From the NCBI GenBank assembly GCA_949317995.1, contig OX439036.1, forward strand, positions 108,665,669 to 108,729,668: DNA of 64,000 nt. Direction: 5' to 3'. The position numbers and the translations under genes were made by a program. Under the pieces are notes generated by a model, which made no database searches, had not been told where the DNA came from, and saw only the letters and a list, made by a program, of their open reading frames with translations. Source of the DNA: Acholoe squamosa. Its lineage: Eukaryota; Annelida; Polychaeta; Phyllodocida; Polynoidae. The stretch's first letter is position 1. The number at the start of each line of letters is the position of its first letter. This document shows positions 25,018 to 61,593 of this stretch, in pieces.

Positions 25018-25065
25018 CAAACAAAAATCATTACCAGCTATGGGACATCGACCACCTGCAGTTTC

Positions 25066-26100
25066 CTATTCATTTCTGGATTTTTGGCATTCAGTTTTAC
25101 CATGTCCAGAGGAACTGCAACCACTGCAAACATGTCTATACTTACAGGGATCCCTTACACAACCTTCTGCTCTATTAAAAGCATTGCAAGAGTTATTTGA
25201 GATTTTTTGTTTGATACCTTTCCTAGTCTTGGTGGCGTATGCCTTCTGTGCCTGAGCAGTACCATCATAAGATAGGTGTCTAAGAATGTCAGAGTTGTCT
25301 ATAACCCCAAAAGCTTCTATCCCATCCTTATTTGCCCTGGTTCTAACCGATTTATCGTAAGCCAATAGGGCTGACACTGTATGCATCTTTGTTCCAGCTT
25401 TCTCCACTAGAACTTGGAGATGTTTTGACATGCCTTCTACATCACTGCTGTCTTTATAATAATCCAGAACAAAATTCAAATTGACAAGTACCAATTTCTC
25501 TACGGTGTCGACCTTTTCCCTCTTTTTTACATATATCTCATGGTCAAACTCACCACATTTGGTATTGGTGTGAAGCTTGGATGTAGAGGAATCCATTGAC
25601 GACCCTCTTGACGACGACCGCGGTCGGTGACGAGCGGAAAACGGAGATTTTGATCTCCGGCGACGACCACGAGCTGCATCTTCGTCCCACCTCGATCCGT
25701 TGCTAACGACGCTGGGAGACCGCTGCCTAGATACGCGGCTGCACCCTTGGTGATATGCCGTCACTGGTCGTTGACAAACATTCGCATGTGCATGCTGCCA
25801 CGCCCCCTCGGTTAATTTCGTCTCGTCTTTCTTGTCCTTTCCAGCCACCAGCTCCTGCAGCAAGCCTTTGATACTGCACAATTCGTCCTCCAACGATTCT
25901 AACCTCTCCGTCTGGTCAATGAATTGGTCGTCTTCTAACCCCTTAGCATGGTTGGGTGGTGTAGACCTCTGATCCACACAAGACGAATCCAACTCACTCG
26001 CAAATCCCGAATTGGCCGATTCTACTGATTTCTTTGCCGATTTGGCCGATTTTTTAGAAGTAATAGCCGCCTTGGCACCTCTAGTTGATTTTCTCCCCAT
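25066..26100 (-). CDS. Gag-like ORF1 of the Ngaro-like element
   Basis: 344 codons, intact. A nucleic-acid-binding structural protein for the element's particle. The N-terminus is basic (K/A/S-rich, 1-30), followed by a short coiled-coil-like segment (60-88) and an Arg/Ser-rich tract (about 123-172). A conserved-looking globular part spans 180-290. The C-terminus carries two zinc-binding motifs: C-X8-C-X4-C-X3-H (305-323) and a classical knuckle C-X2-C-X4-H-X4-C (325-338). It starts 7 bp inside repeat A1, whose TATATAAG box and CRE palindrome lie just upstream. It ends in UAG with the RT frame continuing in phase. Function is inferred from the zinc motifs and position. Confidence 0.8.
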   Translation of the reverse strand: MGRKSTRGAKAAITSKKSAKSAKKSVESANSGFASELDSSCVDQRSTPPNHAKGLEDDQFIDQTERLESLEDELCSIKGLLQELVAGKDKKDETKLTEGAWQHAHANVCQRPVTAYHQGCSRVSRQRSPSVVSNGSRWDEDAARGRRRRSKSPFSARHRPRSSSRGSSMDSSTSKLHTNTKCGEFDHEIYVKKREKVDTVEKLVLVNLNFVLDYYKDSSDVEGMSKHLQVLVEKAGTKMHTVSALLAYDKSVRTRANKDGIEAFGVIDNSDILRHLSYDGTAQAQKAYATKTRKGIKQKISNNSCNAFNRAEGCVRDPCKYRHVCSGCSSSGHGKTECQKSRNE

Positions 26101-26106
26101 CTTGAT

Positions 26107-26248
26107 TTGAAAACTCCCTCTTATATACTGGAGAAGTGTTTACCATGACGTCATGCTATGACATCATAGATACCAATGCGCGCTGCAAGTAGTCCCTAAC
26201 CGTCCGCGGCTAATTATATAAATATACACAAGTGTATATAGTTCCATA
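26107..26248 (-). promoter_or_regulatory. Split direct repeat A1 and probable promoter of the Ngaro-like element
   Basis: 142 bp at the 5' end of the element on the minus strand. It contains a perfect cAMP-response-type palindrome TGACGTCA (26146-26153) and, 19 bp further along the minus strand, TATATAAG (26127-26120). With usual spacing, transcription from this TATA box would begin near the ATG at 26100, so either a slightly upstream start or a very short leader is used. The same sites are repeated in A2. Confidence 0.55.
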
Positions 26249-35902: not shown

Positions 35903-36612
35903 AATAATAAGACACTGTCCAATAATATACGGGACAGAGCCATTGCTAGTACCAAACAAATTAACTAGGTGGCTCATGAAGTCAGGGGCTAGATCAGCAG
36001 TTGGCCTCTATGTACAGTTTACTTTGGTTGGCTCTTCCCAATAGTTTAAATGAAGCTATATTCTAAAAATCTATACCTTTGGATAGAAAATAATTTAAAC
36101 TTAAACATTATCAGATTTATGTAGACATAGTACTTCAAATACAAGAGCAATTTAACTTTAAAGGTTTTCTTAGAGGGCACATATAATCCAGGCTGAGTAA
36201 AACCAAGCCATTGTCTTCCTATCAGGCTGTTCCCCTCCATTCACACCTAAAACAATGGACAGGTACTTAAGGTGATTAAGATAGAGGCAGGGGCATCTAT
36301 ACCAGTCTTTTCTATTCCCATTGTTTTCAATGGGTGGAGGGGATGATAAGAGATTACCCACAATCCTCTGCCAGATCCAAGATGGCCGTCGGGAGTCAGT
36401 TACATAACTGATTTCAAGATGGCCACCTCCATACAGAAAAGGCTCTGTTCCCTACAGGTTCTAGGTGGGTTCCCACAGCCTAGCTCAGCAGGGCTACATG
36501 CATTATGCTGACCAATGGGCATGATGCATTAATGCATGAGGGCCCCTTAAAGGGTTAATAGCTTCACATCATGGTGTGAATAGCATATTGTAGTGTTCGG
36601 TGAAAAGGGTCT

Positions 36613-36688
36613 AGTCAAGCAGGGAATCGAACCCCGGTCGCTGACTTCAAAGTGCAGAATGCTAACCAGTACACCACGGGACTGCTCC
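36613..36688 (-). repeat. tRNA-Gln-like SINE head or pseudogene
   Basis: On the minus strand it has an A box TGGTGTACTGGTTAGC (36676-36661), an anticodon-like loop within CACTTTGAAG (UUG, Gln) and a perfect B box GGTTCGATTCC (36633-36623). The acceptor halves pair poorly, so a working tRNA is unlikely, but internal pol III promoters look usable. Confidence 0.65.
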
Positions 36689-44353: not shown

Positions 44354-44357
44354 ATAA

Positions 44358-45704
44358 TGATATACCATTTTATTGTTCCATAAATTCTAACATATTTTGT
44401 ATTAATCAAAGAAATATCTATGAAATTAATACATAGGTTGGTTCTAAGAGCTATAAGAGCGCTCAAACTTTACATAAGAGCGTTCATGCCCCACTGCACA
44501 CCAGCCAGGTCAGTTACATACACTCTCTGACATCAAAGGCTCCGACCTAATGGTTCATTGCACAATATAATAAAAATGAGGGTCTCAGTGTGCGACCTCA
44601 TGGTTCAATGCACAAATTAATAACTTGTAAGTGAATGCAACCGGCCGTCACGGGTGCCTGAGCACCGCTGACGCCGTCATGAGTGTCTGAGCACTCTAAG
44701 GACTGAACAATGGGTTACATAAGCACAACGCCATAACCTTCCGGTCGCTCTAGCATCGCTCCTGAGCGACCTAGGTCAAATATCAAAAATTCTATGGAAA
44801 GCCCATAATTAGACGGTCAGAATGAGCCCAAGATCAAGGCGGAACTCCCAGTATTAAGGAAGTTACGCCATGGAGACTGAATCGACCTCCGAGTAAGCTA
44901 CAGACAAACCGGCGGGAGTTACGCGCCTATCCAGCGGGCATTATAAACTTGGCATATTCAACTCCGCGCATGCCCAAAATGGCGGTTATAAACGCATAAA
45001 CGGCCGAGATATGAGGGTCTAAAGATGCAGAACCGACCAAGACAATGGGGGCCATAGCGGCGTCCATGGGGGTCCTTTGTCCCCCTGTGACACTTGAAAG
45101 GGTCCCCTCAAACAATTGTAGAGTTAGGCAGATGCTGCTGGCTCCAGTCAGTCTGGAGGTGCTTTTCCAAGATTTGCTACAAATAGCCTGTCTGCACCTC
45201 CAGGAAGACACATCACCAAGAACCGCTCTAGAGGTAACATCTCCAGTCATCTCCTGCTACCTGCTATACCACTGCACTATGGTGAAACTATGCTAGACAG
45301 GCATTGGTTTCCTACCATTAGTGGCCAGAGGCTATCTTCTTCAAGACTTCCACCAGAGGGTAAAGTTATCCATTATTACATTATTCCTCTAAGCAGCAGG
45401 TCAGGAGCTAGGTGTGGGAACCCACCTAGAAGTATGCTGGACACTGTATTATTAATACCTCACAGGTGGAGTGGAACTGAACATTGTACTTTATAAATTA
45501 CTGTATGTTTACTGTATGTACAAATTACCTACATACTAACTACTGTGTGATTGATATTTCTTACATGTTGCCTAAAGCTGAATAAACCAGTGACAACTGG
45601 AAATAACACTATTTATTATGAGCCTGATGTATTTACTCCATACACCACTAGTCATATGATATTTCTCATATGACAACTTGATCATGCCAATCACTAGTAT
45701 GACA
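44358..45704 (+). repeat. 5' LTR
   Basis: 1347 bp, TG...CA bounded. A TATAAA at 45492-45497 and an AATAAA at 45581-45586 suggest U3 to about 45525, a short R, and U5 to 45704. Internal features: two ~55-bp direct repeats with CCTNATGGTTCA (44540-44625), three stem-loops with a CTGAGC 3' arm (44650-44771), and GTCATATGA/TCATATGAC arms near 45651-45674. Small ORFs shared by both LTRs look fortuitous. Confidence 0.95.
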
Positions 45705-45707
45705 AAG

Positions 45708-45722
45708 TGGTGGAGAACATCC
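45708..45722 (+). promoter_or_regulatory. Primer-binding site
   Basis: TGGTGGAGAACATCC lies three bases after the LTR. Its first nine bases are complementary to the 3' end TCTCCACCA typical of tRNA-Ala. The longer match to a specific tRNA was not tested. Confidence 0.45.
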
Positions 45723-45758
45723 TACTAAGATCCCATCCCTCACAGGCTCATAAAATTT

Positions 45759-45860
45759 AAAGCTGGTAACACAACTAAAAACAGTCATGCACACAGTAAG
45801 TTAAAGCTGGTACCGCAACTGGGAACAATCATGCACACAGTAAATTAAAGCTGGTACCGC
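45759..45860 (+). repeat. 44-bp leader repeat, about 2.3 copies
   Basis: Units start AAAGCTGGTA(A/C)C and include CATGCACACAGTAA. They sit between the primer-binding site and the minisatellite, in the region where packaging signals usually lie. Confidence 0.8.
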
Positions 45861-45930
45861 ATACACACGGTTAGACCCACTCCACCCACCCAGTGACCTT
45901 GACCTTGACACCATACCCACCAAGGTCTCC

Positions 45931-46372
45931 AGTGGAATCTCCCACATACCAGTGAGATCTCCCACACATCAGTGAGGTCCCCCACACATCAATGAGATCT
46001 CCCACACATCAGTGAGATCTCCCACACATCAATGAGATCTCCCACACATCAGTGAGATCTCCCACACATCAATGAGATCTCTCACACAACAGTAAGATCT
46101 CTCATATGTCAGTGAGGTCTCCCAAAACGTCAGTGAGGTCTCCCAAACGTCAGTGAGGTCTCCCAAACGTCAGTGAGGTCTCCCACACGTCAGTGAGGTC
46201 TCCCACACGTCAGAGAGGTCTCCCACACGTCAGTGAGGTCTCCCACACGTCAGTGAGGTCTCCCACACGTCAGAGAGGTCTCCCACACGTCAGTGAGGTC
46301 TCCCACACGTCAGTGAGGTCTCCCACACGTCAGTGAGGTCTCCCACACGTCAGTGAGGTCCACCACACACAT
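45931..46372 (+). repeat. 20-bp minisatellite in the provirus leader (about 22 copies)
   Basis: Unit GTGAGGTCTCCCACACGTCA in the 3' half. The 5' half uses a GAGATCTCCCACACATCA variant with the palindrome GAGATCTC and alternates agt/aat to give a 40-bp higher-order period. The array runs into the first codons of the open gag frame. Because 20 is not a multiple of three and TGA recurs, no frame is open through it. Confidence 0.95.
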
Positions 46373-48374
46373 CAAGGCCTTATCAGTCAAGCTGGCAGAA
46401 CAACACACAAAGACCTTACGTAGTCAGGGGCCTGTTGAAGAGGTCTCCCTCCCACCAAGATCTAGGAGGCCCACAGGAGGCAAACCAGCCTCCAATACAA
46501 CAGACCCACACTCAGTAGACCCCACACCACCCACCCTGTCTACTCAGGGAACAACCAGTTCTCAGGGATCCAACATTTCCCAGGGATCTCTACAGGACGC
46601 CCAACTCACGCTATCTACCTCAGGGGAAGAAGGATCTGCCTCAGGGGGTGGATCCACACCCTCATCTAGATCCTCCACCCCAGCTCCAGCCTTTGACAGC
46701 CACTCCTCCAGAGACACCTCCCCCACACCCTCCATCATGGACACCGATGAAGGCCCCCAACCTAATCAGACAGCTGAGAAGATAAGGGCCTATGAGAAGG
46801 CCATCCAAGATGCAGTTACTGCCCTAGAGACCAACAAGTCCCAGCAGGAGGAAAGGGAGAGGATCCTCAACCAACAACTGGCAGAGAGGAATGCAGCAAT
46901 AGATGCTCAACAGAAGGCCATGGAAGATCAGCGGAAGTCCCTAGAGAGACAACAACAACAGATAGCAGATCTCATGAAGATGGTATCATCCCAGACCCCA
47001 CAACCTCACACACCTGCCATCACACCTGTTGTCACACCATCTGCCTCTGGATCCAAAGATGACATCATAATCTCCATGGTGTCCAACATGACCAAGCTCA
47101 TAGACAATAAACAGCAGGACGACAGAAAGATCAGGATACATGAGGTAACAAAACCCAAAACCTTTTCACACCCATCACCACTCATGTCAACAGCATTATT
47201 CATTGATCACAAATTCCCAGAATATCTGAAGGATAAGTACAAAGTGACAGACAGTGACACCATGGTAACATATTTACCCAAGTACCTCGAAGGACAAGCA
47301 CTAGCTTGGTTTGAATCCTTCAGGGAGAGTGCCACACCTGATATGTTGACATGGACCAATGTAGTGAATAAATTAAAAGAGTATTTTGCTACTCGAGACA
47401 ATATAATCTCAAGGACTGCACTCCGTGCACAAAAGATAGATGAACCTGTTCTAGACTATGCATGCCATCTCAGGAAAGTGTGTAATGCCCAACGCCAGAA
47501 CGATGAAACCCTAAGCAAGGCATTTACCCAAGGCATGAGGCCCTGGATCTCTATAGCTCTTGAGAACAAGAAAATAGACTCTTTTGACCAAGCCCTAGAC
47601 CTAGCCCTAGAGGTTGAGACCCAAGAGAGATCTAGGAAGGTAAGGGATGCAGAAACCAACCCACAGCCTACTAAGAAAAAGGTCCAGGAAATCAGCACTA
47701 GTTCAGATGAAGATGTTAACCTAATGTCTAGTGCCCATGTAAGGCAACAGGAAGCTAAGGTTGCATCAAGAGACCCTACCGGTAGATACAGAGGAAATAA
47801 CTATGACCCCAACTACCAATCCAATAGAGGTAGAGGTAGAGGGGGCAACAACAACAACCGGGGGGGTCACAACAGTAGGAAAGACAACAGCTCTTCCAAC
47901 TCCAACAATGGTAACTCTTCATACAGTGATAGGAGAGACAGAACCCCAAGTAATGGCAGATCCTATAATAATCAAGGATCCAACAGTAGGAGCCAGAGTC
48001 CACATAGGAACTACAACTCTGGATCCTACAACAACAGTAGATCCTACAACAACAGCCAGGGGTCAAACAACTCTGGATCCTATAGTCAAGGATCCAACAG
48101 TAGGGGCCAGAGTCCACATAGGAACTACAACAGTGGATCCTACAACAACAATGGCGCCTACAACAATCAGAGATCCAACAACTCCGGTCAATACAGCAAC
48201 TCTGGTCAATATAACCAGGGTTCCAACCCACGCCAGGAGGATTACAAACCTGACACAAGAGGTTACCAGGGGAACCAACAAAGTAACCCCCAAATACCAC
48301 CTCATGTGATGGATCAAATCTCCAAACTCCTGGTGGCAAGCATCTCAACCACCCCACAGAACCAGGAAAACTAG
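46353..48374 (+). CDS. Gag polyprotein of the provirus
   Basis: Open for 673 codons from the edge of the minisatellite; the first ATG in frame is 46737 (codon 129), so the true start is uncertain (46737, a non-AUG start, or a spliced leader). Segments: a Ser/Thr/Pro-rich N-terminus, a Glu/Gln-rich coiled coil (about 139-215), a Ty3/Gypsy-type retrotransposon gag capsid region (about 264-425, with YLEGQALAWFES and LKEYFATRD), then a long Asn/Ser/Gly/Arg-rich tail (470-655) with RGRGRGG and repeated SPHRNYNSGSYNN units. There is no CCHC zinc knuckle; the RG-rich tail probably binds RNA. The stop UAG (48372-48374) lies 88 bp inside the pol frame. Confidence 0.85.
   Translation: MRSTTHIKALSVKLAEQHTKTLRSQGPVEEVSLPPRSRRPTGGKPASNTTDPHSVDPTPPTLSTQGTTSSQGSNISQGSLQDAQLTLSTSGEEGSASGGGSTPSSRSSTPAPAFDSHSSRDTSPTPSIMDTDEGPQPNQTAEKIRAYEKAIQDAVTALETNKSQQEERERILNQQLAERNAAIDAQQKAMEDQRKSLERQQQQIADLMKMVSSQTPQPHTPAITPVVTPSASGSKDDIIISMVSNMTKLIDNKQQDDRKIRIHEVTKPKTFSHPSPLMSTALFIDHKFPEYLKDKYKVTDSDTMVTYLPKYLEGQALAWFESFRESATPDMLTWTNVVNKLKEYFATRDNIISRTALRAQKIDEPVLDYACHLRKVCNAQRQNDETLSKAFTQGMRPWISIALENKKIDSFDQALDLALEVETQERSRKVRDAETNPQPTKKKVQEISTSSDEDVNLMSSAHVRQQEAKVASRDPTGRYRGNNYDPNYQSNRGRGRGGNNNNRGGHNSRKDNSSSNSNNGNSSYSDRRDRTPSNGRSYNNQGSNSRSQSPHRNYNSGSYNNSRSYNNSQGSNNSGSYSQGSNSRGQSPHRNYNSGSYNNNGAYNNQRSNNSGQYSNSGQYNQGSNPRQEDYKPDTRGYQGNQQSNPQIPPHVMDQISKLLVASISTTPQNQEN
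48287..48374 (+). promoter_or_regulatory. gag-pol overlap, candidate -1 frameshift window
   Basis: Pol is in the -1 frame relative to gag and is open from 48287, so the two overlap by 88 bp. The last gag codons read G GAA AAC UAG. The AAAAC resembles the A-site half of known slippery sites, but the P-site half is not canonical. Frameshift signal position is therefore inference. Confidence 0.4.
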
Positions 48375-48397
48375 GATGTCACAGTGCCGATGGGCCA

Positions 48398-51300
48398 GTG
48401 CACTGTGACACCCCAAATACAAACAATCAATCAGGATTAACAAAGATCCAACCAGAGACAATTGCTAGTGCAAATCTACCATCTAACAGACAGAGACGTC
48501 CATCAGTGATACACATCACCCCACCAGATTCATCATCAAAGGATACAGGTGAGAGTACCAAGCTTTCTATTGTACTTCTTCAAAATGGCTGTATCAATGC
48601 AAATCTATATGATGTTTCAGATGTACAATGTTTGGTTGATACAGGTGCTACTATCACCTGTGTCAGACAATCATTCCTCATGGATCTCCAAAAGAGATTC
48701 CATATCCAACTGAGGAAATCTAAAATCAACATCCACTTGGCAGATGGATCGGTGTGTCATGTTAGACATTCAGCTATGCTGAACTTTAGAATCCAAGGTG
48801 TCAGATTCCAATACCAATTTGCTGTAATACCCAACCTCACACAGCCCATTGTACTCGGCACAGATTTCTTAAGCACTACAAAATCTCAAATTGAATTTAA
48901 TGTTGATCCTGAACAAATTCTCAAACCCATTAGGGCAGTGAGGGATTTTACCATCCCTCCATTCTCTGAACTTGCAGTATTGGGTAAGGTCACATCTACT
49001 CAATCACTGCAAGGCAAAACTGGAGTAGTAGATAACCTCCAAAGAAACAACAATGCCCCATATCTAGTTCAAAGGGCAGCAGTAACCCCCAGGGAAAATA
49101 ACAAACATCCCCTAGTGTTACTCAACACCAGCAGGCGCCCACATAAAATCAAAAAGGGTGCCATCATAGCTCTATTTCAGGAAGTCAAGGAATCTGATTT
49201 AGAAAAACCTCAACAGGTGTCAGACACTACCCCACACACTGATCAATCCATCTCAGCCATACGGCCTGAGGACGTAACTCAATTCAGTGACACAGACTCA
49301 GACTGTGAGTCCACATATGCTGACCCTGAACCCAACTCAATCAGACTCTCTGAAATAGCTGCTATACATAGTGAGGCACATGACCTCGAGCCAGAATTGG
49401 AAGAGAATGTTCCACCAAAATCTGTGCTCACATCCAAAGATCAGCATGATAGATTAAAGTCACTGCTGACCAAGTATGATGATGTATTCGTAGGAAAAGA
49501 TGGAGACATTGGTGCCACACACCTGTATACACACTCAATACATGTAAAACCTGAGGCAGTACCATGTCATTTCCTACCATATAGACAAACACCAGAAAAA
49601 CAGGCCGCAATAGGGGAAGAGTGTGAAAGGCTAGTACAACAGGGCATTCTGAGAGAATGTGCCGAGGGCCCCTGGGCCTCCAGATCCTTTTTAGTACAAA
49701 AATCATCGGGAGGCCATCGGCTCGTCACAGATTTTCGTTATTTGAACCAGAACACGATAAATCAAGCCTTATCTACACCCCGGGCCGATGACACTCTAGA
49801 CATGATAGGGTCACTCAGACCAAGAGTATTCAGTAAGCTAGATGCCCAACAGGGATTTTTTCAAATTCCTATAAGACAGGAGGATCAGCATAAAACCGCA
49901 TTCATAGCAAATGACAAAAAATATGTCTATGAAAGGATGCCGATGGGTTTAGCGACGGCACCGGCGGGATTCTGCCATCTAGTCACATTAATTCTGAACA
50001 AACTCAAGTACAAATGTGCCCTACCATACCTAGATGACATATTGGTATTATCACCATCAATCGAACAACACTTCCATGACCTGGAAGACGTGTTCAACAG
50101 CCTAAGAGTTGGTAAACTCAAACTGAAGAAATCAAAATGTGAATACTTCATAGACAGAATAGACTTCTTGGGAATGAGAGTCACACCCATGGGACTGCAA
50201 CCATCTCCCACAAAGGTGGAGTCAATCAAAACCTTCCCAACACCAAAATCAGTCAAAAATGTCAGATCCTTCACAGGCCTATGCCAATACTTCAAAAAGT
50301 TTATCAAAGGTTATGCCCAAATTGCTAGACCATTATATGATCTACAGACACATCTCAAAGCATTTGTCTGGACAGAAGAGGCAGATAATGCTTTCAAAAC
50401 ATTAAAGCATGCCCTCTGTACCAATGCTCTTCTCAGATATCCAAACTATGAGAAAGAGTTCAGTTTGGCAACTGATGCTTCCAATGTGAGTTTAGGAGCT
50501 GTACTCTCACAGAGAGATAATGAAGGAGTGCTCAGACCAGTAGCCTTTGCAGGTAGAACCCTCTCAAAACATGAGAGAAATTACAATACCACAGAGAGAG
50601 AACTACTGGGAGTAGTGTATGGAGTATTACACTTCAGACACTATCTAGAGACTAGACACTTCCAATTATACACAGACCATGCAGCCCTAATCCCACTACT
50701 AACCAATACAGGACTCACACATAGATGGGCCAGATGGGCTCTAGACATACAACAATTTTCATTCACCATCCAACACGTGAAAGGTGATGATAACACACCA
50801 CCAGATGCTATGTCTAGAAGAGAATACCCAGACTCTGGACCCATGACTAACCCTCCACCCCCACCAAGGAGAGTTAGAGCAGCCAGTAGAACCAAGTTTG
50901 CAAAAGTAACAAAGAAAGTACCATTCAAAAGGGATGATCCACCCAACACCATTGAAAGGCCAGAGACACCCATTAGGGGTATCTTGAAGCAATCTACACA
51001 CTATGTGTTTTGCCACTGTGAGAGAGAATACTCACAACTCTTTCCAGATAATGACTTCGAGCCTATTGAATTCTCATCACTCAATCAGATAGTGAAGGTA
51101 ACTCCTAAGGAGCCACCCTTCACCCCACCTGACTCAGATGATGAAGATCCAGAAGACACAATATATGCTATTACTCAAGCAACTTCTAAATCAGTCAGAT
51201 TCTTTGAACCAATGCAGGGAGAGGAAACATCAAACCATTTGTGTCCTATGACCACACGCTCAAAGACTAGAGAAATGATTCAGGAGGGCACACCAAAACC

Positions 51301-53128
51301 CCCCACACAATCACAAACTATTCTAAATGAGAAAAAGGTCACAGGAAACAAACCTACCAAAACCCCACCTGCCAGGAAAAATGTCACAAAAGACACTGCA
51401 TCTACTAAGTCAAAGAACTCTGAGACAAAGAAGAATGACAAAAAGCAAATTGTGCCTTTAAAGAAAAAGGTTGCCACTCCCATTAAGGCGAGAATAGGCC
51501 CTCCAAAGGAGCCTACACACCAAAAAAAGAGTGACACACCCCAACAAAAGGCACAAGATAGGCCAATAGTCGATGAAAAAGAAAAAGAAAGAGACAGAAT
51601 AAAACAACATGTGCTAGATATAAATCAACTACTGGATCAGATTCCCGACACATCCATCTCAGGTACAAACCTTGGCTTGGAACAAAGGAAAGACAAGGAC
51701 CTATTGCCCCTCATACAATATCTTGAGGATGGGACCTTGCCTGCACCAAAAGCACAAGGAAACAGAATCATCAACCAAGGCCAGACATACACCTTGGTAA
51801 ACGGTACATTAGTCCATATATGCCCCATAAATTGGAGAAAAACCAATACTGTACCACTTCAAATTGTTATACCACAGCAATGGGTAACAAGTACACTACA
51901 GTATTTCCATGACTCACCTACTGGCGGCCATCTTGGTTCAAGTAGGATGCTGTCAGCACTCCGACCTAGGGTATATTGGAAGTCTATGCTAGCAGACACA
52001 ACAAAATATGTTTCCACCTGCCACACATGCCTCACAGCAAAAAGGCAAGTACACTCACACAAAACACCAATGACAGTGAGAGAGTACATGACTTCACCAA
52101 TGAAGTTCCTAAACCTAGACGCGGTGGGACCACTTCCCACAACTGCCAGGGGAAACAAACATATACAAGTCTGCATAGATTATGCTACCAGATATGCAAC
52201 AGCTTGGGCTACTACTGACTTAAAAGCTGAGACAACAGCAGCAGAGTTCTACAAGAATATAATTTGTCATCATGGAACACCAGCCACTCTTCAAACAGAC
52301 AATGGGACATGTTATACAGGTGCAAAGTTCACAAAGTTAACTAAACACCTCAAGATCAAACATAAATTCTCCTCACCATACAGGCCACAATCAAATGGGC
52401 TTGTAGAGAGATTCAATGCTAGCATAGGCACAGCACTCAGAGCATTCTGCTCAAAGCACCAAAACAATTGGGATTCATTTATTGAACCCATAACCTTTGC
52501 ATTAAACAACACTGAATCCCAAACCACAGGATTCACCCCTTTCTTCCTACTCCATGGGAGAAACCCAGCCACCCCAATGGACTTAGGGCTGGGAATACAG
52601 GAAGACATATCCACAGTAGCAGACCATGTAGCTAACATGATAACAAATCAAGATACCTCTAGGAGGAAAGCTATAGAAAGGGTCGCCAAGCTACAAAAGG
52701 AAAGGAAGGATAGATATGATAAGAGACTTACACCACAGGAAATCAAGGTCACCGACATGGTGTACCTTAACATACCAAGAATCCTGACCAACACAGAGTG
52801 TAAGAAACTTCAACCCCTTTTTATGGGACCATATGTTGTAGTAGATAGACCTAGTTTGACAAGTGCCAAACTCAAAAACTTGGACACCAATCTATTGGTG
52901 GCCAGACCAGTGCACATAGACAGACTGAAAAAGGTTGTGGCTGTCAGAAACAATGAATTTGCACACAGGCTTATTCCACATGAGGCCAAATACTACAGCA
53001 AAATTGTAAGGAACAAAAATGATATCACCCTTACAAGAGAAACCACAGGCATAGGCCCTATCAAGCCTAGGCCTGCACACCACATACTAAGAAAGACATC
53101 TAGGTGTGGTGCAGTTTCAAGAAATTAG
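48398..53128 (+). CDS. Pol polyprotein (protease, RT, RNase H, integrase)
   Basis: 1576 codons without a break, counted from a GTG at 48398 although the frame is open from 48287 and no ATG fits, so it is expected as a Gag-Pol fusion. Aspartic protease: LVDTGA (D81) and IVLGTDF. RT: about 378-640, with RLVTDFRYLNQ, KLDAQQGFFQI, MPMGLATAP and the active site YLDD (544-547). RNase H: SLATDASN, TERELL, YTDHAAL, ending at DAMSRR (about 802). A 360-residue Lys/Pro/Thr-rich linker follows. Integrase: HHCC zinc finger from about 1168, catalytic D1241, D1301, E1337 (D-X35-E), and a GPY-type motif (MGPYVVV). No chromodomain seen. All catalytic residues are present. Confidence 0.95.
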   Translation: MHCDTPNTNNQSGLTKIQPETIASANLPSNRQRRPSVIHITPPDSSSKDTGESTKLSIVLLQNGCINANLYDVSDVQCLVDTGATITCVRQSFLMDLQKRFHIQLRKSKINIHLADGSVCHVRHSAMLNFRIQGVRFQYQFAVIPNLTQPIVLGTDFLSTTKSQIEFNVDPEQILKPIRAVRDFTIPPFSELAVLGKVTSTQSLQGKTGVVDNLQRNNNAPYLVQRAAVTPRENNKHPLVLLNTSRRPHKIKKGAIIALFQEVKESDLEKPQQVSDTTPHTDQSISAIRPEDVTQFSDTDSDCESTYADPEPNSIRLSEIAAIHSEAHDLEPELEENVPPKSVLTSKDQHDRLKSLLTKYDDVFVGKDGDIGATHLYTHSIHVKPEAVPCHFLPYRQTPEKQAAIGEECERLVQQGILRECAEGPWASRSFLVQKSSGGHRLVTDFRYLNQNTINQALSTPRADDTLDMIGSLRPRVFSKLDAQQGFFQIPIRQEDQHKTAFIANDKKYVYERMPMGLATAPAGFCHLVTLILNKLKYKCALPYLDDILVLSPSIEQHFHDLEDVFNSLRVGKLKLKKSKCEYFIDRIDFLGMRVTPMGLQPSPTKVESIKTFPTPKSVKNVRSFTGLCQYFKKFIKGYAQIARPLYDLQTHLKAFVWTEEADNAFKTLKHALCTNALLRYPNYEKEFSLATDASNVSLGAVLSQRDNEGVLRPVAFAGRTLSKHERNYNTTERELLGVVYGVLHFRHYLETRHFQLYTDHAALIPLLTNTGLTHRWARWALDIQQFSFTIQHVKGDDNTPPDAMSRREYPDSGPMTNPPPPPRRVRAASRTKFAKVTKKVPFKRDDPPNTIERPETPIRGILKQSTHYVFCHCEREYSQLFPDNDFEPIEFSSLNQIVKVTPKEPPFTPPDSDDEDPEDTIYAITQATSKSVRFFEPMQGEETSNHLCPMTTRSKTREMIQEGTPKPPTQSQTILNEKKVTGNKPTKTPPARKNVTKDTASTKSKNSETKKNDKKQIVPLKKKVATPIKARIGPPKEPTHQKKSDTPQQKAQDRPIVDEKEKERDRIKQHVLDINQLLDQIPDTSISGTNLGLEQRKDKDLLPLIQYLEDGTLPAPKAQGNRIINQGQTYTLVNGTLVHICPINWRKTNTVPLQIVIPQQWVTSTLQYFHDSPTGGHLGSSRMLSALRPRVYWKSMLADTTKYVSTCHTCLTAKRQVHSHKTPMTVREYMTSPMKFLNLDAVGPLPTTARGNKHIQVCIDYATRYATAWATTDLKAETTAAEFYKNIICHHGTPATLQTDNGTCYTGAKFTKLTKHLKIKHKFSSPYRPQSNGLVERFNASIGTALRAFCSKHQNNWDSFIEPITFALNNTESQTTGFTPFFLLHGRNPATPMDLGLGIQEDISTVADHVANMITNQDTSRRKAIERVAKLQKERKDRYDKRLTPQEIKVTDMVYLNIPRILTNTECKKLQPLFMGPYVVVDRPSLTSAKLKNLDTNLLVARPVHIDRLKKVVAVRNNEFAHRLIPHEAKYYSKIVRNKNDITLTRETTGIGPIKPRPAHHILRKTSRCGAVSRN

Positions 53129-53935
53129 AAACAGGATTGAGATACCAAAAGACATAAGATTTTCAAAATGTATTACAAATTCTCTTCATCCACACATAAG
53201 ACATGTGTGACTGATAATGAATTACTATGTATATAAAGCCAATCAAATTTGTAAATATATCAGTAGGTTATTGCCTCTGAAAGGGTCAAAGACTGGGACC
53301 CCCCAAGTAAAGCAGACATGAAGTCTAAGAAGAGTAAGGGTAACACAATGGAGTGTCTAAAGCCTAATCCCCACATGAAAGAGCGCGCTATGCCAACACA
53401 GCAGTCTATAGAGATCAATTGACCTTATAAGCTACCCTCCGACAACTGTCTAGACGGTCATGAATGGCTGTCCTGGATGACAGGAGGAGCTAATTACCAG
53501 TACACAGACTACACAATAGACCCCACAGGTAGCAGACACTGGAGATTAATGCATTGTCTCCAGAGAAACAATACCAGGCCCACAATGGATGTGGGTAGGG
53601 TAGGCTACATAAGAAGCACTGTGGACCATAGCCCACCATCAGTCTTCATCCAGCTGCAGTCTGGAACACAAGTCTACAGGACCCCACTTGGGAATTAGCC
53701 AGCCCACTTCTCCATTAGGAGAGACTGCACTAGGATAAAGAACACACCTACTTCACCTTCAACCTGACCTTACCATTTACTGGTCAACCTCTATAGACTC
53801 ACCGGACATATTGCCAAGACAGCTCAATCTTGCAAAGGTACAGTTTGAACCACTTCATTTAAAGTGTTACACCATACACTTAGACTTTACCAGCACCAAA
53901 TCACTACAAATTTGACAAGACTTTAAACAGCAAAC
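53129..53935 (+). other. pol-env spacer, with a small ORF
   Basis: About 800 bp without a long frame. An ORF of 73 codons (53477-53698) is open from an ATG but has no recognised motif. The acceptor for a spliced env mRNA would be expected here. I cannot assign either with confidence. Confidence 0.4.
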
Positions 53936-53953
53936 TTGCTTTACACAAGCACC

Positions 53954-54718
53954 ATGGGGACACTGAGAGTTTCACCCATACTGCTAACTATGCTGTTATT
54001 ATATACTATTGAACCACTTACTGCAGGTTATACACCTGTGGTGAGACAAAACATAGGAGTAGTATTCAAACCTAGCCCTAAACCATTGGTCAATGGACAT
54101 ACAACCACAACACTGTTGTTAGCTATTCCCTACAAGATACCTCGGGCACCCGTTACCCAAGGATCCATAAGGGATAGAATACTCCATTTGACCACTCCTA
54201 CTCTACAAGATCATACCTCTGGCCAAATTATCCAACAAGCTAAGGAGCTAGACACCTTGCTGGAAATTGCAGACAAGGAGATAAATGAAACACTAGCCTC
54301 CATCAAATTGTTCTTATCCAACCCCATAAACACATTGGACAAGGCCAAAAGAGAGGCCATACTGGGTTTTCTAGCACCCCTGTTTCGCGGTGTGCTAGGT
54401 CTAGCCACAGTAGAAGATGTAAACCAAGTAATGGGACAGCTCAAGAACATAGATGAAATACTAAGAAAATTTGCTAAACAGGATCAGGAAGCAGCTAGTC
54501 TCATTGAAAAGATCACAGACAGACAAGATAAGTTTGTTAAAGCATACATCCAAGACAAGAAGGTACTGGACACCATAGGTGACACGGTCAACCTGTGGGC
54601 CTCTAACATGTCCAGGTCACTTGACTCATATTCAAGGCACGAGAAAACTCAAAGGGAGAAAATGCAAGTATTAAATGATGCACTAATTATCATAGCAGCA
54701 AGAATGAATACAGTTTAA
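53954..54718 (+). pseudogene. Env-like ORF, N-terminal part (F-type), ends in an in-frame stop
   Basis: The ATG at 53954 has an ideal context (CACCATGG). The product starts with a hydrophobic signal-peptide-like segment. A furin-like KAKR (residues 130-133) is followed by a hydrophobic, fusion-peptide-like stretch and an LA-TVEDVNQ region leading to heptad-like helices, the layout of baculovirus F and Gypsy-type envelopes. UAA at codon 255 (54716-54718) stops translation, but the same frame continues open beyond it with family-typical sequence. So it is an interrupted envelope gene. The group assignment is by motif order, not alignment. Confidence 0.7.
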
Positions 54719-54742
54719 TCACTGCAAAGGACAAATGCAGCC

Positions 54743-55699
54743 ATGAGGATGCTATCATCAGGGATCCTAACCCCTGATATAGTACCACCCTCAGACCTTG
54801 CTAGATACCTAATTGACATTAATAACAAACTTAGGATTACACACCCTGGAGCACAAGTCGCAATTAATGACTTAGATTTCTATTATTCACAGAAGCTGAC
54901 TTCATATACTTACTCAGCTCACCATATATATATTCATCTGGACATTATAATTCAATCTACCACCTCAACCTTCAAACTATACCAAATGATTACATCACCC
55001 ATGCCTATAGACACACAGGAGACCCCCACCAGAGGAGTCACCAAACTACAAACCACAACTGAGTTTCTAGCAGTATCTTACGATGAATCATTATTTATCG
55101 AATTGGACTCAGCAGATATGCAGGCATGTGAAGGTACTACAGTAAAGGTATGCAGAGATGTAAATGGTAGAATCTATAAACACAGGCCTACATGCCCTGT
55201 AGCCATTTTTACTAACCAGGCTCAACAGATTAAGGAACATTGCAAGTTTACAGTTTCACCACTGCAAGCACCTACCACCCATGCTATTTCCATTTCTGAA
55301 GATGAGTATCTGGTCACTACTAATGAACCCCATTACTTTATCAACTGCCATGGTAAAACGTCTGAAACTCGGAAGGCCCAGTCCTACTCAATCATAGGTG
55401 TACCCTGTGGGTGCACGATCAGTGTAGGAGAATTTTCTCTTCCAAACACAAGGTTGCCCTGTAACTCAACCTTATCATTTCATTACATTCTCAAGACAAT
55501 TAATTTACCATTCATGGCAGCACTTAACAAAATTTCTGAAACCAAACCAGATGAAAGAGAGAATCTTCCAAATTTCCCAGTAGTAAACCTTTCTAGAACC
55601 TTAGAAAAACTACAGGAAAATCCAATCATGGATGATATTACTCAACTAAATTTAGAGCCCTTTGCCAAAAACAGTATTAAAAGATGCCTCCAACCTTAA
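54743..55699 (+). pseudogene. Env-like ORF, middle part
   Basis: Same frame as the upstream env part, separated by one UAA. It opens with a SGILTPDIVPP segment, which occupies the place of the '(L/I)xPxx(L/I)xPxxL' region after the helices in F-type envelopes. A Cys-rich ectodomain-like part follows, with C-x4-C-x-C spacing (PCGCTISVG) and NxS/T glycosylation sites such as NST. The frame terminates at 55697-55699 before any membrane anchor. Whether it can start on its own (ATG 54743) is unknown. Confidence 0.65.
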
Positions 55700-56567
55700 T
55701 AAGGAAATGGAAACGCGCTACGAGGAATCATACCTACGTCGAATTACAGAGCATCCAATCTTCCAAAGCTTAGCACTCATCCTAGGGATATCAGCTCACA
55801 TTTTTATAGTATACATACTACTCAAATTATACAGACTAGGAGGAACTGTAGCCTACCTGCCTACAGCCAAAGCATTCAGACTAGTCACCGAGCTGCCCCT
55901 ACACAAATTGCTCCCAGATAAGAATCCTACCAAACTAACCCCTACAGAGGAAACCCACACCCCTTTCCTCACAATTCAGGAAACCCACACCCTGATAATT
56001 GCTATATTATTCACCCTGACCATCTACTCAGCCTACAGAATAATGAAGTACCTTAAGAAATTTGCACAGACACACTGTGGCAAGAAAAATGTGGCCAAGC
56101 GCACAAACCCCACAATATATTTTAAAATATATTGTGGAGACTCAAACTTCGCGCTACCCTTGAGGCCAATACCACATGAATTTGATGAGATTAAGTCAGC
56201 AGCTGCCCCTACCTATAAGGATATAGTGGTTAAAACCTTCCCACTACCTAAGGCTATATTTACCTGGAATGGACCAGCAGTTATAACAACACAGAGAGGA
56301 GAATTTGCTTATCACCTCCCTCAGGTGATACACCTACCTTGGCGCACTAGGTTCAGTACTATACCAGCCCTTAAAAACAAAGGGCTGTACTACTCCATGC
56401 TTCTCCAGAATGATTGTGGCACCAGCCCGGTGACCATGACAGCACTGGAAAATACAACAGATATAATTATTGACGAACAACAGGAGGAGACCGCAAGGTC
56501 AAACATGCAGACTATTGCTAATTTTCTAAACCACCAGCCCTCCCCGGTGACTGTGGAAACAGCCTAG
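55662..56567 (+). pseudogene. Env anchor/tail frame or separate ORF with two membrane segments
   Basis: Open in the +1 frame relative to the env middle part, overlapping it by 38 bp; the first ATG is 55707, just after the env stop. A strong hydrophobic segment (codons at about 55761-55835) looks like the missing envelope anchor, and a second (55992-56045) follows. The remaining ~180 residues are a soluble, conserved-looking domain with no recognised family. Either a single-base indel split env, or the anchor is supplied by recoding, or this is an independent membrane protein. A cytoplasmic tail of this size would be unusual for an F-type envelope. Confidence 0.55.
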
Positions 56568-56716
56568 ACTGCCCACAGCCTAGGCTGCCCCCAGTCCACC
56601 ACCAGGAGACAACACATCAGAGACAGTATTCAGAACTTTTCGGACAATTTGCCGGCCCTGAAAAGGGCCTTTGGGATGGCGGGTTTTTACACCCTAGGTT
56701 TCAGTCAGTCGGGATC

Positions 56717-57196
56717 CTACCACAGATCCTCGGGTTCAACATCAATGGGAGAGTCCGGGGCCGAGTCCGAGCCATACATATGGCCGTGATCCTGCTCCCA
56801 CTCAGCGAGCCGGGCCTCCAGCATCCCCAGTCCATACTCGGCAGCCGTGGATGGATTCCCGGATGCCGCAAGATCGAGGAGGGATGCCGCCAACAAATAA
56901 TCCCATAGCACTCGCTCCCGCGGCCCTAGGTTATAATCCATGGGCCAGAAACCCATATTGCCCAAGGCCCTAGTCAGAAGGGCCACAGTGGCCCCCCGAC
57001 GCAAGGCTGAGCCCAGGAAATAATGGCAGGAGTAATTACAGACCACCACATCACCATGCTCAATGATCTCCTTGAAATTACTCACTATGTACCCATAATG
57101 GATGGTCTGGTTAGACTCAACCAGGGCCCTAGCTGGACTCCCCACCTCCATCACCTGGGGGACAGGCAGAGCAAAGAGAGCTTGTAGGTGGGCCAT
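56717..57196 (-). CDS. Antisense ORF in the provirus (159 aa, unknown function)
   Basis: Starts at ATG 57196 in a strong context (ACCATGG) and ends UAG at 56717-56719; the frame is open further upstream to 57349. The reading frame lies in a GC-richer island (56700-57200) with no long frame on the sense strand. The product has a mixed globular composition (HYGYIVSNFKEIIEHGD; WDYLLAASLLDLAASG) and an acidic end (DSPIDVEPEDLW). No zinc, membrane or catalytic motif is recognised. A TATA-like TGTATATAAT sits about 270 bp upstream on the minus strand (57460-57470). Antisense genes exist in some plant Ty3/Gypsy elements and in deltaretroviruses, so a regulatory accessory protein is possible; function unknown. 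Confidence 0.55.
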   Translation of the reverse strand: MAHLQALFALPVPQVMEVGSPARALVESNQTIHYGYIVSNFKEIIEHGDVVVCNYSCHYFLGSALRRGATVALLTRALGNMGFWPMDYNLGPRERVLWDYLLAASLLDLAASGNPSTAAEYGLGMLEARLAEWEQDHGHMYGSDSAPDSPIDVEPEDLW

Positions 57197-58006
57197 GGTA
57201 CTACAGCAGTGACTTCCAGAGAGGAACTGATGCTCCAATACCAGCCACACACTCCTTAAATGGACACACACACACCCCCCCCCCCCACCCTGAACTGTCC
57301 ACTGACACCAAGCTAGGCACTGCCACAGACACATGCCAAAATCTGGCACCTAACACCTCAAGTGCCACCACTGCATGAGCACACCAGGGAGGAGACTCAC
57401 ATCTCACTCCTGACACACCTCCACTGTCAATGAAATTATCAAAGTATTAGAAAAAAAAATTATATACACAGCCACTTGTTGATGTATAATATGAAAATCT
57501 ATGGTATTCTCACAAAAATCAATGATTAATGCGCACATATACGCGCAAAATTGCGAAATTGCAAATTACAAATTGTAAAATTGTACAAATCTAACATTAA
57601 TATACATGAATGCAGGTAGATAACTAAGACAGTTTTTGTACCCACTAGCACTTGTATACTATGCCAAGGTTTACTTAAAGTAACACACTTTAGGTATCCA
57701 AGAAAATTGTTGGAAAAATGAAAAAAAAAAAAAAAAAAAAAAAAATTTGTTGAGAAAATTGTTGACATAAAACATGTTTACTTAAGATACTCACCAAATA
57801 AATCTCTTTCAGGGACACATACTCAAAAGGCTAGGGGAATAGTCAATTAAGCAGCGGCCCACTGCCGAAATTGCCAATTAATACACCCATATAGCAAAAT
57901 CAATGAGTAACTCAGAGACAAACAAGCCTATTGTACATGAAGTGCTTTGTTTTTCCGGCCCTCGGAAAAATTTGTCTCAAATCCCATAAATTGAATAGTG
58001 TAATCT

Positions 58007-58270
58007 AGATTGTACGTTTGTACCCAATTTGCACACAAAAATTGTATGTTTGCACACCAGATTGTACGCTCGTACCCAATTTGCACACTAAAATTGTATA
58101 TTTGCACACCAGATTGTACGCTCGTACCCAATTTGCACACTAAAATTGTATATTTGCACACCAGATTGTACGCTTGTACCCAATTTGCACACTAAAATTG
58201 TATGTTTGCACACCAGATTGTACGCTCGTACCCAATTTGCACACTAAAATTGTATGTTTGCACACTAGAT
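58007..58270 (+). repeat. 52-bp tandem array (about 5 copies)
   Basis: Units begin AGATTGTACGCTCGTACCCA and contain TTTGCACAC twice. Unit starts at 58007, 58059, 58111, 58163 and 58215, with a degraded copy after. CGTAC palindromic cores recur in every unit. Confidence 0.9.
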
Positions 58271-58439
58271 TGTAAGTTGTATCCAATTTACATTTGATTT
58301 ATATGTTGCACATTATACTGTATGTCTGTACCCAATTCATACACTGAAGTCAGATTTTTAGAAAATCAACATTTCTATGTGTATCCAAGCTGTACGCAAA
58401 ATTACATTTGTACATACAGAAACTATCAATTGAACGCAA

Positions 58440-58680
58440 AAATTATGCATTGGCATACTAAAATTGCCAAATGCACGCGAAATTATATATTTGCACACTA
58501 AAATTGCCAAATATACGCGAAAATTATATATTTGCACACTCAAATTGCCAAATGTACGCGAAATTATATATTTGCACACTAAAATTGCCAAATATACGCG
58601 AAAATTATATATTTGCACACTTAAATTGCCAAATGTACGCAAAAATTATATATTTGCATACTGAAATTGTCAATTGAACG
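58440..58680 (+). repeat. 40/41-bp tandem array (about 6 copies)
   Basis: Units alternate between 40 and 41 bp (GCGAAATT versus GCGAAAATT) and contain TTTGCACACTAAAATTGCC. The shared TTTGCACAC..AAATTG core shows common ancestry with the 52-bp array. Confidence 0.85.
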
Positions 58681-59058
58681 CAATTACACGCGAAATTGTA
58701 AATTTGCACACCGAAATTGTCATTTATGTTCAATTTGCACGCTAAATTGAATATTAAATGCCAAAATTGCACACTATTTGCCAAATTGTATGTTGTACAT
58801 AAAAATGGAAAATTGTACCCAATATTGATGTTACATAAGCAAATAAGCTATGGTATGGTAAGATATAGAAACTCGGAAATGTACTTATACCCAGGAGAAA
58901 ATTGTTTATACTGACAAAGCTCTACCACAAAAATTGCATTTGAAGCACTCCCCATCACTTCAAATCCTCTTACAAAACAGTATACAACTCCAAAATAAGG
59001 TAAAAATTGTATAAATTGTACATTCCCTCGGCGAAATGACGGAGTTTCGCATTCTTTC

Positions 59059-59071
59059 GGGGGAGAGGGAG
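59059..59071 (+). promoter_or_regulatory. Polypurine tract
   Basis: Thirteen purines (GGGGGAGAGGGAG) end seven bases before the 3' LTR, the expected site for plus-strand priming. The small gap is a little unusual. Confidence 0.65.
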
Positions 59072-59078
59072 TATTCTA

Positions 59079-60425
59079 TGATATACCATTTTATTGTTCC
59101 ATAAATTCTAACATATTTTGTATTAATCAAAGAAATATCTATGAAATTAATACATAGGTTGGTTCTAAGAGCTATAAGAGCGCTCAAACTTTACATAAGA
59201 GCGTTCATGCCCCACTGCACACCAGCCAGGTCAGTTACATACACTCTCTGACATCAAAGGCTCCGACCTAATGGTTCATTGCACAATATAATAAAAATGA
59301 GGGTCTCAGTGTGCGACCTCATGGTTCAATGCACAAATTAATAACTTGTAAGTGAATGCAACCGGCCGTCACGGGTGCCTGAGCACCGCTGACGCCGTCA
59401 TGAGTGTCTGAGCACTCTAAGGACTGAACAATGGGTTACATAAGCACGACGCCATAACCTTCCGGTCGCTCTAGCGTCGCTCCTGAGCAACCTAGGTCAA
59501 ATATCAAAAATTCTATGGAAAGCCCATAATTAGACGGTCAGAATGAGCCCAAGATCAAGGCGGAACTCCCATTATTAAGGAAATTACGCCATGGAGACTG
59601 AATCGACCTCCGAGTAAGCTACAGACAAACCGGCGGGAGTTACGCGCCTATCCAGCGGGCATTATAAACTTGGCATATTCAACTCCGCGCATGCCCAAAA
59701 TGGCGGTTATAAACGCATAAACGGCCGAGATATGAGGGTCTAAAGATGCAGAACCGACCAAGACAATGGGGGCCATAGCGGCGTCCATGGGGGTCCTTTG
59801 TCCCCCTGTGACACTTGAAAGGGTCCCCTCAAACAATTGTAGAGTTAGGCAGATGCTGCTGGCTCCAGTCAGTCTGGAGGTGCTTTTCCAAGATTTGCTA
59901 CAAATAGCCTGTCTGCACCTCCAGGAAGACACATCACCAAGAACCGCTCTAGAGGTAACATCTCCAGTCATCTCCTGCTACCTGCTATACCACTGCACTA
60001 TGGTGAAACTATGCTAGACAGGCATTGGTTTCCTACCATTAGTGGCCAGAGGCTATCTTCTTCAAGACTTCCACCAGAGGGTAAAGTTATCCATTATTAC
60101 ATTATTCCTCTAAGCAGCAGGTCAGGAGCTAGGTGTGGGAACCCACCTAGAAGTATGCTGGACACTGTATTATTAATACCTCACAGGTGGAGTGGAACTG
60201 AACATTGTACTTTATAAATTACTGTATGTTTACTGTATGTACAAATTACCTACATACTAACTACTGTGTGATTGATATTTCTTACATGTTGCCTAAAGCT
60301 GAATAAACCAGTGACAACTGGAAATAACACTATTTATTATGAGCCTGATGTATTTACTCCATACACCACTAGTCATATGATATTTCTCATATGACAACTT
60401 GATCATGCCAATCACTAGTATGACA
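59079..60425 (+). repeat. 3' LTR
   Basis: 1347 bp. Differs from the 5' LTR at 59448, 59476, 59489, 59572 and 59583 only (by eye). Three of the five are C-G to C-A/T-G type changes at CpG. AATAAA at 60302-60307 should end the element's RNA. Confidence 0.95.
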
Positions 60426-60429
60426 ATAA

Positions 60430-61593
60430 CATACGTCATGTATAAGGCTGTACACCATTTAGATTTCAGGAAGCTCAGTAAATAATGTTGCTAATCAGAT
60501 TTGAATAAGGGTGGCCTGATCGCAGACCATCTTAGCACCATCACTACTACCTGGCATGCCCGCCGTTCATATACATGTTAATACATGTACAGGAAGGTGC
60601 TAGACCCAGGCCCATTCCTCCCCTAGGGAAACCATTCCTATGAACAAATCTTATGCATGGAGGGTATTAATATGGGAATGCAACTACAGCTGGCTCCCCA
60701 GGCTGTATCAGGTGTATGGCATGGATGTGTGAAACTTCCCCACACATCCACTGTAGGTAGATTTCATAGTCACTGCCAGACTCCAGGATGCTGCAGGCAT
60801 AGCTGCAGATTCCATAGAAGCCCTATGGGTACAGAAGTCCTTTTTTGCATTACCTAGAGGTTAGGGTGATGCGATGTATAGACTACCATCTTGTCTTCCA
60901 GATCACTCGTTTATGTTGATAAAACCAAAGGACATGGCTTCAGATGGTCAGAGGAAAAAGGTGGGAAAATCAGGAAGGTAGGAGATATGGAGAGATTCAT
61001 TGACAAAAAGAAAATCTATGTAGATGGCTTACAGAGGGGTCACACCTTCTCCTAGGTCACTGACAGTCCTTACCAAATCAAAGAGAATATATGCATTATG
61101 TCAGAATCTTGGCAGAGGATGATGTGTGCATCTTTACTACCTTATGTATGTGGCCGTTTCCAGATAGATAGTGGGAAGTGTAATGATTCGAGTTCTTATA
61201 TAACTTGGGGTCCGTTCGAAATATATCAATATCAAGCAAAACCAGACAAGTTAGCTTGGGTTAGTGCAACCGGCACATGTTTATTTCGTAGTTACATATG
61301 TTTGAAGTGGTGCTATGAATATAGCTCAGTGCTCTCCAGGTGTTGCCCTGGCCGCAGTCAGAAGCCAACTGAGCTCCCTACGCAGTCCCAGGTAGGGACG
61401 GGAGCAGTGAAGACTAGTGCTGCCACCACCTCATAGTGACCAGAGATCAAAGCGACCTCTGGTCCTACCGGTGGTAACCGCACCGATCGACCTGCCCTCT
61501 CGAATAGGGGGCTAACACTATATATACCGCTCCACGAACCCCTACAGAAGCATGCCTGAAAAGTACTGATCTGATACATTTACATTCCAGATC

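Follow-up and report, generated by a model that had tools for sequence, protein, structure and literature searches.

A coding-like antisense gene candidate between env and the 3' long terminal repeat of a Ty3/Gypsy element in the annelid Acholoe squamosa

Introduction

Deltaretroviruses possess the antisense genes HBZ and APH-2. Those of human T-cell leukemia virus (HTLV) overlap sense genes, and HBZ has an acidic part, a spliced form and a bZIP domain. Here we report on an antisense accessory gene candidate near the 3' end of another env-bearing retroelement, a single Ty3/Gypsy insertion at positions 44358–60426 of a 64,000-nucleotide (nt) stretch of the genome of Acholoe squamosa (assembly GCA_949317995.1, contig OX439036.1, forward-strand positions 108,665,669 to 108,729,668; this whole stretch is called the window). 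The gene is placed between env and the 3' long terminal repeat (LTR), convergent with env. Unlike the deltaretroviral genes its frame overlaps no known coding frame, the end of env (56567) lying 149 bp before its stop. A bZIP domain as in HBZ was not recognized in its product (no Pfam match), and no PDB chain was matched below E 0.07.

Plant Ty3/Gypsy elements were already known to carry antisense genes of unsettled function. The relevant passages of PMC11963269 and PMC7264820 place antisense open reading frames (ORFs) between pol and the 3' LTR of Retand/Grande elements (Grande gene23, RIRE2, Retand) and record a proposed regulatory role; an initial annotation of the window had also stated that such ORFs occur in some plant Ty3/Gypsy lineages. 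In its survey passages PMC11963269 reports TRP28 in the antisense ORF of 97 percent of Retand clusters, describes sense ORFs of that region as lacking known domains or transmembrane regions, and names the deltaretrovirus antisense genes alongside; a passage of PMC7264820 locates the HTLV antisense promoter inside the 3' LTR. As in the Retand/Tat lineage so described, the Acholoe element has an antisense ORF between pol and the 3' LTR, a long 3' internal region and, like many Retand elements, tandem repeats in that region (two arrays). By contrast, TRP28 was not detected in the antisense protein, which has no Pfam family, and its gene follows an env frame. The env-bearing element apparently lies outside the plant Retand lineage.

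Gag-pol-env order, a Ty3/Gypsy pol and a 4-bp target duplication are shared with Errantivirus and other env-bearing Metaviridae. No Pfam fusion-protein family, the baculovirus F protein type included, was detected in the env pieces of the Acholoe element. To our knowledge, an antisense gene is not a standard part of such elements. Extra genes besides gag and pol do occur in animals: passages of PMC5408684 describe captured ORF3 types such as GDSL, DEDDy and env-like in LTR elements of bdelloid rotifers, and the sole mention of 'antisense' in these passages concerns small RNAs, not ORFs. In a literature search that had most subscription papers outside its scope, we came across no conserved antisense gene in a Ty3/Gypsy element of an animal. 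The present case is an env-bearing element with an antisense protein matching no known family, and its many near-identical copies make selection, exchange and presence/absence measurable.

Results and discussion

Coding signal and purifying selection

56717..57196, minus strand: antisense gene, 159 amino acids, acidic C-terminus, ATG at 57196 in the context ACCATGG

The antisense frame almost certainly codes for protein, and comparisons across diverged alleles show it, at the level of sequence, to be coding-like and held by purifying selection. The copies compared (numbered L below) come from a genome of 1.48 Gb in 63 contigs. The 85 listed env places are the best of 5418 first-look candidates found with an env query, a list in which old copies are under-represented; 60 were read at the gene's place and 25 were left unread. 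Thirty-two of the 60 carry the gene, 21 are of an 'empty' type and 7 have other structures. By difference count, the 32 gene copies comprise 17 window-like (A), 4 intermediate, 4 A2 and 7 B copies.

The initial annotation had proposed computing the ratio of nonsynonymous to synonymous divergence (dN/dS) on the minus frame of other copies; in diverged alleles it is about 0.2, with the frame kept. Five full-length B copies (L069, L071, L072, L081, L083) differ from the window by a dS of 0.38–0.46 and a dN of 0.084–0.119, giving ratios of 0.21–0.28, each on more than 60 site differences (for L071: dS 0.40, dN 0.084, ratio 0.21, Fisher p 7e-9). Ratios of 0.19 and 0.22 were obtained for two B copies aligned only in part, and of 0.16–0.25 for eight A2 and intermediate copies, except for L055. 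Within clade B, L071 and L083 are separated by a dS of 0.235 and a dN of 0.042.

Variant counts, which cover the first 40 of the 60 env-chosen copies (20 with the gene), point the same way. Under neutrality 29, 68 and 3 percent of variants are expected to be synonymous, nonsynonymous and stop, respectively. The 143 distinct variants relative to the window consist of 72 synonymous, 70 nonsynonymous and 1 stop, and those common to at least two of the 20 copies of 52, 40 and 0. Singletons (20 synonymous, 30 nonsynonymous, 1 stop) are not clearly non-neutral (p 0.076), as expected for changes after insertion.

Stops and frameshifts at a neutral rate, named in the initial annotation as the sign that the frame is no gene, were not seen in related copies: 23 of the 32 gene-bearing env-chosen copies are intact by a mechanical test, 5 contain a stop or frameshift and 4 could be aligned only partly. 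Two of the 23 have gaps, one of 18 bp in frame (L061) and one of 2 + 4 bp that together keep the frame (L083). With the gene itself as query, 1671 first-look candidates were found genome-wide, the best 150 of which were scored; 149 have no stop, in a list biased to good copies. The gene-chosen set of 40 loci (30 + 10; 39 copies besides the window's own) consists of best-scoring copies that lean to the intact, and its variants (16 synonymous, 4 nonsynonymous, 1 stop) are a biased sample and not main evidence.

The features that had first drawn attention to the frame, namely its length of 159 codons, the strong ATG context, an acidic C-terminus, a local GC rise and the lack of a long sense frame, were all recovered. 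From 57349 to 56717 the minus strand is open for 210 codons, a run that arose on that strand in 2 and on either strand in 8 of 1000 dinucleotide-preserving shuffles of 56570–57440. On the plus strand the longest open run in this interval is 112 codons, and a 128-codon frame (56522–56908) overlaps the left part of the antisense frame. The GC content is 0.57 at the frame versus 0.39–0.46 in env and pol (500-base windows). The predicted protein has a mass of 17.5 kDa, an isoelectric point of 4.6 and a net charge of −6 over its last 19 residues.

Base composition by codon position is strongly unequal in the 159 codons (chi-square 36.4, p 2e-6; GC 0.64/0.42/0.64), a bias hardly present in the 51 codons that precede the ATG. 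The amino-acid score is 0.063 bits per residue from ATG 57196 and −0.465 in these 51 codons. The coding signal starts at this ATG; the upstream in-frame ATG at 57334 gives 205 codons with a poorer amino-acid score (−0.045). In order-2 Markov sequences of the region, an ATG frame of at least 159 codons occurred in 61 of 5000, and length combined with amino-acid score in 0 of 5000. Third positions are T-/G-rich on the gene strand, i.e. A-/C-rich on the plus strand like those of gag, pol and env. Carrying the plus-strand bias of the element, they point to long residence in this orientation.

Allele divergence in clade B is confined to the gene and a short leader

56720..57255, minus strand: block of clade B allele divergence (frame plus short leader), flanks nearly identical

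Four copies of B, the most diverged allele, differ from the window at 5–13 sites per 60 from 56720 to about 57255, and at only 0–1 sites in 56660–56719 and 1–2 per 60 in 57320–57379. Where they were read (L110, L136, L138), the flanks of the second B branch (L083, L057) likewise come close to those of the window. The 3' part of env is 0.8–2.0 percent diverged up to 56570 in three B copies, and the reverse transcriptase (RT) region 2.3–2.8 percent in three, a fourth having no match there. Two A2 copies were profiled, and both show a sharp left edge of divergence. Over the 32 copies and the window, diversity is 0.072 in the frame, 0.007 in the left and 0.016 in the right flank, where one bin reaches 0.028.

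In five copies with diverged alleles the dS of the gene (L081 0.40, L083 0.46, L069 0.40, L053 0.14, L060 0.13) is 3.1–4.3 times that of pol (0.093, 0.119, 0.102, 0.045 and 0.037, respectively). Synonymous divergence raised in the frame alone is not explicable by selection on the protein. The simplest reading of these sequences would be that diverged lineages exchanged the module, whose diversity balancing selection possibly maintains. The antisense gene looks to behave as a module that is under selection and can be exchanged on an almost uniform backbone.

Presence and absence of the module

56610..57397, no strand: module of about 788 bp, with 11 nt in its place in 'empty' copies
56600..56625, plus strand: left copy of an imperfect direct repeat (CACCAGG..AGAC..CACATC), found by eye
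57382..57407, plus strand: right copy of the same repeat, found by eye

Of the 21 empty copies, 15 had their junction read and six were assigned by string match. In the 15, sequence continues to 56609, is followed by the 11-nt stretch and resumes with 57398 onward. The right flank of the empty class was seen neither in the window nor in those flanks of clade B and A2 copies that were compared. In view of this unfamiliar flank and of the 11 nt at the junction, we rejected the idea that the class arose by simple deletion of the module as it is today. Among the seven other structures, L074 (read further as L108) has a junction of its own, 56581/57403. At the site of the gene, the env-chosen copy L077 has a stretch without any match to the window.

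Homology and structure searches

The antisense protein gave no Pfam family up to E 10 and no match in NCBIfam; its best match among PDB sequences (E 0.07) was taken as chance. A search of 5.8 billion proteins returned 461 candidates, none at E ≤ 10. IMG/VR had no match with the antisense frame, an RT piece or the pol alignment, and GTDB contigs had none.

Candidate expression signals

57460..57466, minus strand: TATATAA, candidate antisense promoter (motif match)
57149..57176, minus strand: acceptor-like site (pyrimidine tract, CAG/G; first exon base 57154)
57789..57797, minus strand: donor-like site TTG/GTGAGT
57955..58326, no strand: 52-bp tandem array, unit number varying among copies
58391..58760, no strand: 41-bp tandem array, unit number varying among copies

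Promoter, TATA-like and splice sites are weak motif matches. The string around TATATAA is present in 11 of 12 window-like copies and the donor-like string in 12 of 12. The acceptor-like and donor-like (57794) sites are the best on the minus strand of 56700–60430, and in the whole window they rank only 42 of 156 and 19 of 186, respectively. An in-frame ATG at codon 16 (57151) stands beside the acceptor-like site, whose exon would begin at codon 15, and may be where translation of a spliced form starts. Unit numbers of the two arrays range over 3–8 and 1–5 (string count, 12 copies). In the 41-bp array the observed/expected CpG ratio is 2.0 versus 0.15–0.24 in gag, pol and env; this array is perhaps unmethylated or a candidate set of binding sites.

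Function of the antisense gene and competing explanations

We consider the frame to be a real antisense accessory gene, whose product, as far as the sequences can tell, is rather probably a trans-acting regulator or specificity factor. The initial annotation had offered a captured host gene or an accessory regulator; an antisense accessory gene is upheld by the dN/dS of about 0.2 and the kept frame, and host capture is not, given the lack of any family, structure or protein match and the element-like third-position bias. The existence of several sharply different versions suggests that the gene may control or protect the element. In the mechanism that we envisage, an antisense transcript, perhaps with one intron, would be driven by a promoter lying on the minus strand either in the AT-rich repeats or in the 3' LTR, and the acidic 17.5-kDa product would act in trans, either on how the element itself is expressed or against some factor of the host. 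Perhaps because the specificity of the product matters, several types of allele may have been retained.

A number of observations weigh against this interpretation. The amino-acid score is not unique to the antisense frame, and the value of 0.063 needs the chosen start at 57196; among the 82 ATG frames of at least 60 codons in the window, a 62-codon frame scores highest (0.051 per residue), followed by the first env frame (0.041). For L055 the dN/dS is 0.59 on 11 changes (4 synonymous, 7 nonsynonymous), and some close clade B pairs have ratios near or above 1 (L071–L072: dS 0.018, dN 0.020), on few changes, as would be expected after insertion. The right edge of A2 divergence is not sharp (3/60 in 57320–57379 versus 2–7/60 in the frame), which weakens the idea of balanced types discussed below, and the window-like L063, with 4 gene differences and a pol dS of 0.038, has no gene excess. 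TATATAA is altered in all six clade B flanks compared. The module is not required in cis, since at least 21 of the 60 copies chosen by env do without it. In the databases searched the protein has no homologue outside the element family, hence its function is not inferable by descent, and the AlphaFold2 model of the single sequence is unusable (mean predicted local distance difference test score 41). Finally, all copies come from one genome.

As to the allelic diversity, a serious contender, to which we give a little less than even weight, is cassette capture, in which the frame was transferred from other, unsampled element families and no balancing selection acts. Template switching by RT is a known route of sequence transfer between elements. 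The sharp edges of divergence in clade B and the divergence of the clade B backbones themselves in RT (2.3–2.8 percent in the three copies matched) are in line with such transfer. However, both B branches, which are a dS of 0.24 apart, are nearly window-like in the flanks read (L110–L112 left, L133–L138 right), a pattern that would call for recurrent events at the same site or for an exchange long ago.

It is tempting to speculate that the antisense gene is a specificity locus, where diverged allele types and a gene-free type are kept by balancing selection on an exchangeable backbone; we regard this proposal as tentative and on the doubtful side. The product would then act on copies of its own type, or the types would meet different host factors, and such balanced types might be likened to phage immunity or superinfection types. 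If so, retroelements would have an immunity-like locus, which we did not meet in the literature searched.

Alternatively, the protein may antagonise a host defence factor instead of regulating the element, its allelic diversity resulting from an arms race. Discrete diverged alleles and the accessory position adjoining env would suit such a role, which nevertheless seems fairly improbable because the ratio over the whole frame is low (0.21–0.28 in the five full-length clade B copies).

It is distinctly unlikely that a host gene was captured in reverse orientation and that its coding sequence can still be recognised as a paralogue of a gene in the host. The local GC rise, the presence/absence polymorphism and the near-repeats flanking the module, as an insertion might leave them, would agree with capture, and a diverged host parent could be hidden among the first-look genome candidates, 150 of 1671 having been scored. 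Yet no match was found in Pfam, NCBIfam, PDB or the 5.8 billion proteins, third positions have an element-like bias, and the alleles are deeply diverged inside the element family.

A mutation hot spot confined to the antisense frame would account for the local divergence but is very improbable and was rejected, as the mutation spectrum is ordinary (39 transitions and 26 transversions between the window and L071; CpG number 18 and 19) and selection against amino acid change is visible. Least probable of all is that the frame is open by chance in noncoding sequence rich in GC, or that it mirrors a sense frame now decayed: the 61 of 5000 Markov sequences and a GC phase common, by construction, to the in-register plus frame speak for it, but a noncoding frame is contradicted by dN/dS of about 0.2 at dS 0.4 and by 52 of 92 shared variants being synonymous, and the in-register plus frame contains 4 stops, with a protein score of −5.0 versus +9.8 bits for the antisense frame.

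The host element and its surroundings

44358..45705, plus strand: 5' LTR, TG..CA, 5 differences from the 3' LTR
46317..48374, plus strand: gag frame, Ty3_capsid and Retrotrans_gag (Pfam)
48287..53128, plus strand: pol frame, protease, RT, RNase H and integrase (Pfam)
53927..56567, plus strand: env, three frames, i.e. interrupted in the window copy
59079..60426, plus strand: 3' LTR, TG..CA, with ATAA outside both LTRs (44354–44357, 60427–60430)

The LTRs, the Pfam matches of gag and pol, and env substantiate the earlier description of the surroundings as an env-bearing Ty3/Gypsy provirus. Both LTRs are 1348 bp long, differ at 5 sites, and show the TG..CA ends and a target duplication (ATAA) within the 4–6 bp typical of Ty3/Gypsy elements (Metaviridae). 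Gag matches Ty3_capsid at 6e-07, and pol has the Ty3/Gypsy domain order protease, RVT_1, RNase H, H2C2, rve (Pfam). While gag and pol are thus Ty3/Gypsy by Pfam, the label 'errantivirus-like' is one that we infer. None of the 85 env matches listed elsewhere in the genome has a stop within the stretch that was matched, and a count by eye puts about 53 of them in 883-codon frames. Env had no PDB match below E 0.4 and one unnamed relative at 60 percent identity. The copies compared from the 5418 first-look candidates in the 1.48-Gb genome were nearly identical; judged from these many near-identical copies, the element has undergone a large recent expansion in the host genome.

A 20-bp unit is repeated about 21 times at 45937–46369, an array that reaches out of the leader into the beginning of the gag frame and that we take to lie near the place of the insulator repeats in Drosophila gypsy. 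Host DNA is CpG-depleted (observed/expected 0.35 left and 0.27 right of the element). A tRNA-like Rfam match on the minus strand (36612–36683; 36.8 bits, no ARAGORN call) is possibly a tRNA-derived short interspersed nuclear element. A second mobile element, at 22628–26139 on the minus strand, comprises a reverse transcriptase and a tyrosine-recombinase (Phage_integrase) frame and is DIRS-like by layout.
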